Origin: Lactococcus garvieae
Lineage (GTDB): Bacteria > Bacillota > Bacilli > Lactobacillales > Streptococcaceae
Length of the DNA stretch: 64,000 bases
Direction: 5' to 3'
NCBI RefSeq assembly: GCF_016027715.1
Contig: NZ_CP065691.1
Location: 620,001-684,000 of the forward strand
The notes beneath the pieces are model-generated. The model was not told the DNA's origin. It saw only the letters and a program-made list of their open reading frames with translations, and did no database searches. Each line of letters opens with the position of its first letter. Within the stretch, counting starts at the first letter, position 1. The translations under genes were made by a program, and so were the position numbers. Shown in pieces: positions 3,011-42,225 of the stretch.

Positions 3011-3017
3011 ATACTTA

Positions 3018-3132
3018 TCTTCAGGGCACCGTGAAATTCGGGACCGGCGGTTAAAGTCCGCGAAGCTGAAAAGCTTGATGTGGTGAAATTCCACAACCGA
3101 CAGTAAAGTCTGGATGGGAGAAGAATAAGGAA
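3018..3132 (+). ncRNA. FMN riboswitch (RFN element)
   Basis: The conserved RFN core is readable: TCAGGGCACCGTGAAATTCG at the 5' side, GACCGGCGGT, AAAGTCCGCGA, GGTGAAATTCC, ACCGACAGTAAAGTCTGGATG and GGAGAAG at the 3' side. The aptamer precedes ribU, a riboflavin uptake gene and a classic FMN-riboswitch target. FMN binding is known to lower expression of such genes. Two candidate expression platforms follow at 3136-3166 and 3186-3223. Confidence 0.95.
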
Positions 3133-3934: not shown

Positions 3935-3947
3935 AAGAGAAGTTCTG

Positions 3948-4080
3948 AAAAGGACTGACCGAAGACAGTTGGGGACATTAGTCATAAGCATCCAACCGAG
4001 GACAAACATTTTAAACAATGATTGAACTCTCTATGTCTTTTGGTCGTGGGGATTTTTATTTGTAAAAATTTCTACGAACA
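3948..4080 (+). ncRNA. Ribosomal protein L10 leader
   Basis: About 150 untranslated bases lie between the promoter and rplJ. They include the GAAGACAGTTGGGG-type segment, a TCCAACCGAGGACAAAC segment and a GTCTTTTGGTCGTGGGGAT segment. This is the usual arrangement of the firmicute L10 leader, to which the L10(L12)4 complex binds to repress its own operon. Boundaries are approximate. Confidence 0.75.
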
Positions 4081-40891: not shown

Positions 40892-40925
40892 AAATGCAGC
40901 TGAAAAAACAGTTGCCTTTTTATTA
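40892..40925 (+). terminator. Terminator of the rbs operon
   Basis: GCAGCTG pairs with CAGTTGC (one G-U), then CTTTTTATT. Confidence 0.7.
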
Positions 40926-40964: not shown

Positions 40965-40973
40965 TGATATACT
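40965..40973 (+). promoter_or_regulatory. Extended -10 promoter of the leader peptide/rsgA transcript
   Basis: TGATATACT at 40965-40973; predicted start of transcription near 40980. Confidence 0.65.
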
Positions 40974-40997
40974 TAATATAAAAGAAAGGAGCATAGT

Positions 40998-41051
40998 ATG
41001 CGAAAAAATAAGGATATTGTAGTATATGGGGAGGCACTAGTTTTAGTCTGA
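40998..41051 (+). CDS. Putative 17-residue leader peptide
   Basis: ATG at 40998 to TGA at 41049-41051 encodes MRKNKDIVVYGEALVLV. It has a strong AAAGGAG SD (40985-40991) six bases upstream. Codons 11-13 (GGG-GAG-GCA) form the 5' arm of a hairpin with 41060-41066. It looks like a regulatory uORF rather than a functional protein. Confidence 0.6.
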   Translation: MRKNKDIVVYGEALVLV

Positions 41052-41091
41052 ACCATGTAGCCTCCCAATAAGTTTAAACTACTTTTGGAGG
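41029..41091 (+). promoter_or_regulatory. Mutually exclusive hairpins controlling the rsgA-paralogue SD
   Basis: Hairpin 1: GGGAGGC (41029-41035) with GCCTCCC (41060-41066). Hairpin 2: 41061-41073 with 41081-41091, about 11 pairs and two bulges, burying the SD GGAGG (41087-41091). Both use CCTCC at 41061-41065, so only one can form. Confidence 0.6.
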
Positions 41092-41100
41092 AACAAAAAA

Positions 41101-42186
41101 TTGAACACAACTTACAACTTAAAAGAACTCGGTTTTAAAGAAAAATTTAAAACACAAGCTGAAGAATATCCTACTTTGTATCCTGGACGAATTACTGAGC
41201 AAACAAGAGAATTATACAAGGTGGCGACAGATTATGGTGAAATAACTGCGGAAGTATCAGGAAAATTTCGCTATGAAGCTTTAGATTTGGCAGGATTTCC
41301 TACCGTGGGCGACTTTGTCATGCTCGACAGAGTGACAAATGATATAGGAATAGCACAAATTCAGTATTGTTTAAATCGTCAATCTAAGCTTATCCGAAAA
41401 GCCGCAGGTACGGCTCATGAGCGACAAATTATCGCTTCCAACATTGATAAAGTGCTTATTTGTATGTCACTCAATGAAGATTTTAACTTACGTAGAGCAG
41501 AGCGTTATCTCTCATTAGTCTGGGAATCTGGAGCGATTCCGGTTTTTGTATTAACCAAGACAGATATTGCCCAAGATTTAGATAAAAAACTCAAAGACTT
41601 ACAAGAAATAAGTTTTGGAGTTGATATTTTCTTGACAAGTTCGCTTAATGAAGCAGACTATCGTTTCCTTTTAGATTATATTAAAGAAGGAGAAACGATT
41701 GTTCTTATTGGGTCATCTGGTGTAGGCAAGTCAACATTGGTCAATTGTTTGCTGGGAGAAAACGTACTCCAAACCAATGGCTTACGTAATGATGGTAAAG
41801 GTAAGCATACGACGACTCAGCGCAAACTATTTAAAATTCCTTCTGGAGGAATGATTATTGATACACCAGGTATCAGAGAAGTGGGCCTTGATACAGCAAA
41901 CTTTACGGAAACTTTTTCTGATATTGAGCGCTTAGCAACTTTTTGTAAATTTTCAGATTGTGCTCATGAAAAAGAACCTGGTTGTGCAGTTCGTGAAGCA
42001 ATAGAAGAAGGAAGGCTTTCCGAAAATCGCTTTTTAAATTATCAAAAATTAATGAAAGAAGTCGGTTATGAAGGTATGAATAGCAAAGAGATTGAGCGCA
42101 GTAAACTGGATGCCATGTTTAAGGAAATTGGCGGGATGAAACATGCTCGTAAAGCTTTAAAACAAAAAAACAAGCATATATACTAA
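41101..42186 (+). CDS. rsgA: RsgA-type ribosome-associated GTPase (paralogue)
   Basis: 361 aa with a TTG start at 41101 behind GGAGG. OB-fold region, then a circularly permuted GTPase (TKTD as G4, GSSGVGKS Walker A at about 203-210, DTPGIRE as G3) and the zinc site CKFSDCAHEKEPGC. RsgA matures the 30S subunit. At ~360 aa with an N-terminal extension it is longer than the usual ~290-aa housekeeping RsgA, so it is probably a second copy. Its leader peptide and competing hairpins suggest control by ribosome state. Terminator at 42199-42225. Confidence 0.88.
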   Translation: MNTTYNLKELGFKEKFKTQAEEYPTLYPGRITEQTRELYKVATDYGEITAEVSGKFRYEALDLAGFPTVGDFVMLDRVTNDIGIAQIQYCLNRQSKLIRKAAGTAHERQIIASNIDKVLICMSLNEDFNLRRAERYLSLVWESGAIPVFVLTKTDIAQDLDKKLKDLQEISFGVDIFLTSSLNEADYRFLLDYIKEGETIVLIGSSGVGKSTLVNCLLGENVLQTNGLRNDGKGKHTTTQRKLFKIPSGGMIIDTPGIREVGLDTANFTETFSDIERLATFCKFSDCAHEKEPGCAVREAIEEGRLSENRFLNYQKLMKEVGYEGMNSKEIERSKLDAMFKEIGGMKHARKALKQKNKHIY

Positions 42187-42198
42187 GTTTAATAGATG

Positions 42199-42225
42199 CA
42201 GGTCGTAAAGACTTGTGTCTTTTTT
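42199..42225 (+). terminator. Intrinsic terminator
   Basis: CAGGTC pairs with GACTTG (one G-U), then TGTCTTTTTT. Confidence 0.55.

Follow-up and report, generated by a model that had tools for sequence, protein, structure and literature searches.

Several bacterial genes are known to be controlled by ribosomes that translate a short reading frame upstream, and four of these systems, as described in the available portions of the reports cited here, come close to the locus presented below. In ermC and ermB, a ribosome stalled on a leader peptide is thought to remodel the mRNA and to expose a downstream Shine-Dalgarno (SD) sequence (PMC5118997, PMC13410324). The upstream open reading frames (uORFs) of cplR from Clostridioides difficile and of other ABC-F leaders have consensuses of 3-4 codons, such as MR[I/M], MIN and MAGN (PMC10201436). 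In Listeria monocytogenes, a small ORF whose RNA can fold in alternative ways controls hflXr (lmo0762), an antibiotic-induced gene that encodes a homologue of a ribosome-splitting GTPase and gives drug resistance (PMC6310831), and in the toiL-topAI system of Escherichia coli, stalling on the uORF under translation stress frees an occluded ribosome-binding site (PMC12121999). Here we report a candidate leader of this kind upstream of an RsgA-family gene, rsgA2, in a stretch of 64,000 nucleotides of Lactococcus garvieae DNA (contig NZ_CP065691.1, positions 620,001 to 684,000), referred to as the window. No description of an RsgA leader was found in openly licensed PubMed Central full texts; in the available part of one RsgA paper (PMC6912228), the term leader peptide occurs once, in a reference on ErmBL.

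The RsgA2 protein scores 173.3 bits against TIGR00157 (cut-off 100) and 165.4 bits against PF03193, above the curated cut-off. The closest other protein in the same genome shares 35% identity with it, and its nearest relatives, at 69-72% identity, are found in Lactococcus formosensis, L. petauri, L. garvieae and L. ileimucosae. The name rsgA2 is already in print for lp_1687 of Lactobacillus plantarum, in a paper whose available part makes no mention of a leader (PMC7278804). The elements identified upstream of the gene are listed in Table 1.

Table 1. Elements of the rsgA2 leader in the window (coordinates refer to the window).
Feature	Position	Strand	Evidence or remark
Extended -10 TGaTATACT	40965-40973	+	TG[A/C]TATACT in 6/6 Lactococcus; putative function
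uORF Shine-Dalgarno AAGGAG	40986-40991	+	6-nt match to anti-SD
uORF, 17 sense codons + TGA, peptide MRKNKDIVVYGEALVLV	40998-41051	+	starts ATG
Conserved tripeptide D-I-V, uORF codons 6-8	41013-41021	+	presumed stall site
Helix A 5' strand TATATGG, Lactococcus-specific, competitor of arm 1	41023-41029	+	7/7 pairs kept in 6/6 sequences
Arm 1 GGGAGGC, within uORF codons 11-13 (GGG GAG GCA)	41029-41035	+	sequence, covariation
Helix A 3' strand CCATGTA	41053-41059	+	pairing kept in 6/6 Lactococcus
Arm 2 GCCTCCC, partner of arm 1 or of the rsgA2 SD	41060-41066	+	sequence, covariation, folding
SD-sequestering hairpin, 5' strand CCTCCcAAtAAGT	41061-41073	+	AAGT:ACTT kept in 6/6 Lactococcus
SD-sequestering hairpin, 3' strand, includes rsgA2 SD GGAGG (41087-41091)	41081-41091	+	sequence
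rsgA2, RsgA-family GTPase, 361 aa, TTG start	41101-42186	+	TIGR00157 and PF03193 profile matches

The first-pass annotation of this DNA had described a 17-codon uORF with a strong SD, the pairing of its codons 11-13 with a GCCTCCC word downstream and an 11-bp alternative hairpin on the SD of the GTPase gene. The uORF is correct at the level of single bases, and the pairing is confirmed as a 7-bp helix of arm 1 with arm 2 (GGGAGGC with GCCTCCC), the latter beginning eight bases past the uORF stop codon. The hairpin stands as well: CCTCC (41061-41065) is complementary to the GGAGG of the rsgA2 SD, and the helix is extended by AA plus AAGT (41067-41073) against ACTTTT (41081-41086), giving 5+2+4 base pairs with C 41066 and T 41069 bulged. 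Since both draw on arm 2, the arm1:arm2 and arm2:SD helices are mutually exclusive. Terminator-like sites were found by a scan after the upstream gene (40896-40915) and after rsgA2 (42194-42220), so the leader probably begins its own transcript, for which we infer a start near 40980. The extended -10 takes the form TGcTATACT in three relatives of the window leader; a consensus promoter scan listed nothing at the window leader, and no -35 lies beside this element. Folded as a single sequence, the window leader is not striking (z -1.94, with 5 of 200 shuffles equally good), and at gathering score it matches no cis-regulatory family of Rfam 15. Elsewhere in the window, Rfam matches mark an FMN riboswitch (3013-3129) and a ribosomal protein L10 leader (3941-4067).

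Within Lactococcus, rsgA2 is present in 5 of 18 genomes (E<=1e-60), the window genome included. Six leaders, from the window, four named species and one further genome, align at 87% mean column identity, with very high nucleotide conservation around the uORF stop codon. Their uORFs encode MRKNKDIVVYGEALVLV (window), MRVNKEIVRHGEALALV, MHVNKEIVRHGEALAHV (twice) and MRVNKEIVKHGEALDLV (twice), and the tripeptide that reads D-I-V in the window is E-I-V in the others. The first-pass annotation had looked to an alignment across Lactococcus for conservation of the arms, and both exclusive helices are indeed kept in all six leaders: arm1:arm2 with a G-T pair in two of them, and the AAGT:ACTT part of the SD hairpin around a variable loop. 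A third helix, helix A, pairs TATATGG with CCATGTA at all seven positions in 6/6 sequences through T-A / G-T / A-T and T-G / C-G changes. Helix A and the SD hairpin together are incompatible with arm1:arm2, an arrangement similar to the scheme of ermC.

To look beyond this genus, genome samples that overlap one another were searched with the RsgA2 protein, and relatives were found in 49/299 phylum genomes (E<=1e-70), 56/295 order genomes (E<=1e-60) and, in further samples, 51/398 and 24/395 genomes (both E<=1e-85). Of 125 RsgA-type loci, 31 were recognised by eye as having a leader of this class; the 125 include three duplicates outside the 31 (L048-L050, identical to L008, L007 and L006), and L072 was left out for want of upstream DNA. 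Many relatives among the 125 loci are without this leader. Examples of the uORF peptides are MLNNSTVEIVINGEVDTK, MFKTYKAESVSCGEVAAE, MMQIVIFREEYSN and MFKMTATQKDIVMRREALAK. Seven named records of a plasmid collection were also inspected. The leader is present in Peptoclostridium acidaminophilum (uORF MLNISLNLQSVLKREMCVQ) and on a Fusobacteriota plasmid of Cetobacterium somerae (uORF VRKNKSVLESVMKKEGLNK), so that uORFs with an SD are known from two phyla. In Brevibacillus marinus, a uORF contains E-I-V, and two Listeria monocytogenes records carry a variant, MAIVKMENLIINTGVFYL, in which arm 2 is GCTCCC and the SD is GGAGC, a compensated change. The Lysinibacillus and Vibrio records show no such leader upstream of the RsgA-type gene.

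RsgA-type proteins (E<=1e-40) occur on 126 records of the plasmid collection, 67 of them from Rhizobium; some of the 126 are chromosome-sized. On plasmid pMGMM7 of Lysinibacillus fusiformis (L197), rsgA2 adjoins a fosfomycin resistance gene of the FosM family, with no leader there. A plasmid search with the leader itself returned one 28-nt match (E 0.1) that was taken as spurious. In viral contigs, a 30-letter leader pattern had no matches, while a looser pattern gave at least 120 unspecific ones; the covariance model R1 described below, applied to 80 of these, found nothing below E 0.35.

The association of the leader with RsgA genes was measured with a detector that is blind to the gene product and looks for a uORF with an SD, an arm1:arm2 helix and an arm2:SD helix sharing arm 2; its input was a mechanical list of ORFs with a minimum length of 120 aa, not all of them real genes. 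In the window, it matched one of 61 ORFs, namely rsgA2. Over 673 distinct ORFs from the window and the fetched loci, matches were obtained for 35 of the 124 that are RsgA-like and for 3 of the remaining 549. These three belong to a single GNAT family that carries this leader too, and their loci had entered the set through an RNA-model search; outside the RsgA and GNAT sets the count is 0 of 546. By identity class, the RsgA-like matches number 5/6 at >=60%, 19/65 at 45-60%, 11/48 at 35-45% and 0/5 at 20-35%. The detector left 89 of the 124 RsgA-like ORFs unmatched, and it misses the leader present at L008 through the weak SD of that uORF.

Covariation points in the same direction. In the 31 curated leaders, the pair beside the arm1:arm2 core is T-A in 11, C-G in 7, G-C in 4, A-T in 2 and unpaired in 7; the core GAGG:CCTC was required for locating arm 2, so its presence in 31/31 holds by construction. 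In alignment A3, made of the 14 of 31 leaders that MAFFT aligned in register, the covariation score is 0.194 vs 0.132 after shuffling (reached by 5/500 shuffles), and 74.2% of cells are paired vs 68.7% shuffled (1/500), slid registers giving 37-53%. Alignment A4, whose 32 model matches from 67 sources were fitted to the model and are hence biased towards it, gives 0.261 vs 0.123 (0/500) and 77.4% vs 65.8% paired cells (0/500). Slid registers score lower on both alignments, and pairs changed on both sides are not above shuffles in A3 (76/500) or A4 (267/500). A further alignment, A2 (28/31 leaders), has the Lactococcus arm 2 one column out of register and was excluded from the counts. The comparative evidence is decisive and confirms, at the level of sequence, that the observation is real and well beyond chance.

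Conserved within the uORF peptide is a tripeptide that in most leaders reads (E/D/A/Q)-(I/S/N/L)-V. Its strict form, [EDAQ][ISNL]V, occurs in 33 of 38 detector matches and in 28 of 33 distinct peptides; after shuffling of residues the count averaged 3.7 and reached at most 11 over 2000 rounds, although peptides related by homology do not count as independent. Among the 31 leaders curated by eye, the first residue is E (19), D (4), P (4), Q (2), A (1) or K (1), the second I (24), L (4), S (2) or N (1), and the third V (25), A (4), G (1) or T (1). Its codons vary: valine is written GTA in 30, GTG in 4 and GTC in 3 (37 of 38 detector matches), glutamate GAG or GAA, and serine TCG (L062) or AGT (L193, L194). 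V precedes arm 1 by 8-11 nt in 27/38, by 29 nt in 10 and by 1 nt in one, figures favoured by the choice, where several candidates fitted, of the one nearest 10 nt. The spacing of 29 nt belongs to ten Listeria-type leaders, whose uORFs start M-A/E-I/N-V. Moreover, E-I/S-V is kept in leaders with other RNA arms, namely MFNKEIVGNLLI (GTG start), MLNKESVIVLGSMQ..., MFVQAESVVIHLSA and MRKTEIVLIHPP..., and the tripeptide is kept even where arm 1 falls past the stop codon. Because synonymous codons vary while the tripeptide is kept, selection seems to act on its amino acids, which would point to sensing by the ribosome. Pairing of the E-I-V codons with TACAATTT, a word located between arm 2 and the SD, was considered as a further helix and rejected as a general feature, being confined to a subset (own pairing 4.98 vs 4.63, sd 0.17, with swapped partners).

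A covariance model, R1, was built from 14 leaders, none from Lactococcus, and recovers the window leader at E 2.6e-5. In the 299 phylum genomes, R1 gave 16 matches at E<=0.01. Ten precede RsgA2 genes (eight training sequences, and the window and G203 as new ones), three precede a GNAT acetyltransferase gene (G116, G279, G058) and one a gene for an RNHCP-domain protein (G237); the remaining two are an apparent remnant (G097:C83) and a match within coding sequence (G180). Many RsgA2 genes of these genomes have no R1 match. Among the 18 Lactococcus genomes, R1 hits at E<=0.01 exactly the five with rsgA2, the next best match having E 0.12, and in 133 order genomes all three matches at E<=0.003 precede rsgA2 (the window, G349 and the training member G390). 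R1 searches around G116 and G097 returned only matches already known.

The uORFs of the GNAT and RNHCP leaders, MKKNYKMEIVY, MKKNYKSEIVR, LKKYNTPEIVG and MTKYFQEEIVR, stop before arm 1, and in the three GNAT leaders E-I-V lies 10-11 nt upstream of it. The GNAT acetyltransferases behind the E-I-V leader (L172, L173, L178) are about 205 aa long, and L175 is the RNHCP zinc-ribbon gene behind the same leader. At L013, a coding sequence that by eye resembles RNHCP directly precedes rsgA2; a literature search on RNHCP found only unrelated chemistry papers. Also by eye, L179 (G097:C83:2193-2270) appears to be an orphan leader copy fused to what a deletion has left of rsgA2, its 3' end and terminator. 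L177 was rejected as the leader of an intact gene, since it sits within coding sequence.

A second leader type stands upstream of other RsgA2 genes (L009, L010, L011, L089, L090, L092, L093, L094, L122 and L124). Its uORF has five codons (four in L092), reads MSxxx or MAVID and lies about 105-212 nt before the gene, and a terminator-like hairpin precedes the gene in 10/10. In 7/10, a segment of the uORF is complementary to a downstream site at similar distance, L094 alone being clearly beyond shuffles (4/200). From its sequence, this type looks like transcription attenuation. Eight of these loci, as well as L098 and L150, have no match at gathering score in Rfam 15.

We lean slightly towards a ribosome-controlled translational attenuator in which a stall at the tripeptide turns rsgA2 on. 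Ribosomes running straight through the uORF would unfold arm 1, arm 2 would take the rsgA2 SD and the gene would be off. A ribosome halted at D/E-I-V, with the codon of the first or second residue in the P site, would cover the upstream competitor (helix A in Lactococcus) and leave arm 1 just free; arm 1 could then capture arm 2, releasing the rsgA2 SD and switching the gene on. The stall would presumably be caused by a ribosome-targeting drug or another translation stress, and RsgA2, together with the GNAT and RNHCP proteins that have the same leader, may help cells to cope with its cause. The sequences establish the parts on which this proposal draws, namely the uORF, a pair of exclusive helices that are conserved and covary, and the tripeptide with its usual spacing. 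The logic of translational attenuation put forward in the first-pass annotation is thereby supported, as the exclusive helices are conserved, arm1:arm2 covaries and the tripeptide is conserved at the amino-acid level; the ribosome-sensing feedback loop suggested there would be a possibility, so that the earlier interpretation is supported in part. One caveat is that, if valine is still in the A site during the stall, its conservation needs a separate reason.

The direction of control, which the first-pass annotation had left open, was addressed by folding the leaders with a ribosome footprint at each position (3' edge at +12 unless stated otherwise), with energy models that are rough. In the free RNA, arm1:arm2 exceeds 0.5 in 20/31 leaders, the window included, and all ten Listeria-type leaders tested likewise form it without a ribosome; this weighs against the stall model, since repression would need continuous translation of the uORF. 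When the P site holds the first motif residue, arm1:arm2 exceeds 0.5 in 26/31, with the second in 25/31, in 1/31 with the third and in 0/31 four codons on, where arm2:SD exceeds 0.5 in 25/31. For the window, the successive values of arm1:arm2 are 0.79 (free), 0.98, 1.00, 0.02 and 0.00, and for the L. garvieae leader 0.01, 0.80, 0.99, 0.02 and 0.00. Of eight leaders that pair arm 2 with the SD when free, five switch at the second residue, and at this residue arm1:arm2 exceeds 0.5 in 3/3 GNAT leaders; the six of 31 without arm1:arm2 there are L005 (L. formosensis), L006 (L. petauri), L062, L069, L071 and L075. The tripeptide thus stands at about the last position at which a ribosome leaves arm 1 free. 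The exact codon depends on the footprint: an edge of +15 moves the switch one codon upstream (25/31 at the first residue, 1/31 at the second), and an edge of +11 makes it less sharp (26/31 at the second residue, 13/31 still at the third). Other weak pairing keeps the predicted accessibility of the SD low, with a median of 0.02 in the free RNA and of 0.07 when the first motif residue occupies the P site. In these models, the likely direction is that a stall at the tripeptide means on and run-through means off, with exceptions.

A ribosome-supply sensor without any programmed stall is a rather doubtful alternative. As long as the uORF is translated normally, arm 1 would stay open and rsgA2 would be off; a failure of initiation, for lack of mature 30S subunits or under initiation inhibitors, would leave the uORF empty, so that arm1:arm2 could form and rsgA2 come on. 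A factor of 30S assembly would in this way be under direct feedback. Several results suit it: the free RNA favours arm1:arm2 in 21/31 leaders (p12>p23) and brings it above 0.5 in 20/31, a ribosome on arm 1 gives arm2:SD above 0.5 in 25/31, the SD of the uORF is strong, and the 4-5-codon uORFs of the second RsgA2 leader type leave scant room for nascent-peptide sensing. A supply sensor nevertheless leaves unexplained both the conservation of the tripeptide at the amino-acid level and the helix A competitor of Lactococcus.

The sign could also be inverse, with a ribosome at the tripeptide covering arm 1, arm 2 taking the SD and the effector repressing rsgA2. When the third residue occupies the P site, arm2:SD does exceed 0.5 in 23, 25 and 26 of the 31 class-I leaders (edges +12, +13 and +15). 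In the ten Listeria-type leaders, however, 29 nt separate the Val codon from arm 1, too far for a ribosome stalled there to cover this arm, and arm1:arm2 is kept in 10/10 at the second and third residue and in 0/10 with the ribosome on arm 1; a single sign for all leader classes therefore needs a stall to mean on, and we regard the inverse as quite unlikely. An opposite sign for late stalls, considered from the +15 footprint, was dropped after the footprint was varied and the leader classes compared.

Very unlikely, in our view, is a riboswitch-like or protein-bound element in which the short ORF is incidental: the strong conservation of the Lactococcus nucleotides next to the stop codon would suit it, but synonymous variation inside the conserved tripeptide, SD-led uORFs in two phyla and the missing Rfam match of the window leader speak against it. 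Coincidence of SD-like and anti-SD-like words deserves next to no credence, for although the arms are short and purine/pyrimidine-rich and the single-sequence z is modest, the comparative data refute it (0/546 other ORFs vs 35/124 RsgA-like ones, and covariation).

Returning to the stall-dependent attenuator, we advance tentatively, as a possibility, that it represents a widespread, undescribed leader family whose stall code (E/D/A/Q)-(I/S/N/L)-V senses a particular class of ribosome inhibitor or a 30S defect and drives a small translation-stress regulon of RsgA2, GNAT and RNHCP proteins. Were this so, RsgA2 would be a ribosome-protection or rescue factor like HflXr and not a spare assembly factor, and the leader, as a reporter of ribosome stalling, would give a functional handle on a widespread RsgA paralogue. 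There would be a new stall motif, and inducers could be screened with a simple reporter. Attenuation, familiar from resistance enzymes, would also reach a family of ribosome-assembly GTPases, which occurs here on a Fusobacteriota plasmid and in Lactococcus, Listeria, Peptoclostridium and many more genomes of their phylum. The system may reveal a tolerance against ribosome-targeting drugs that is absent from present catalogues.

Set against the known systems, as far as the available parts of the cited papers describe them, the rsgA2 leader has, like erm/cat-type genes, an SD-led leader ORF upstream and exclusive hairpins, one of which sequesters the SD of the gene. The likeness to ermC and ermB lies in the leader peptide upstream, the putative off state in Lactococcus being helix A plus arm2:SD and the on state arm1:arm2; the peptide motif is another one, the target is an RsgA paralogue (or a GNAT or RNHCP protein) and not an rRNA methylase, and here arm 1 is itself an SD-like word within the uORF. 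With cplR and the ABC-F leaders it shares a conserved uORF, an anti-SD element and a putative stall-dependent exposure of the SD. However, cplR also has an intrinsic terminator, and the terminator between uORF and gene that would mark an ABC-F or hflXr-type transcription attenuator is absent at this locus, where a scan of 40998-41101 found no terminator-like site. As in hflXr, a paralogue of a GTPase that acts on the ribosome stands behind a small ORF with alternative folds; hflXr uses transcription attenuation, an RLR motif and a member of the HflX family, whereas the present leader has translation-level arms, an E-I-V-like motif and a member of the RsgA family. The toiL-topAI system differs in its toxin-antitoxin gene, its Rho-dependent termination and its response to at least five drug classes. 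The class of mechanism is known from ermC, cplR and toiL, and it is the sensor motif and the targets that are the surprising part.
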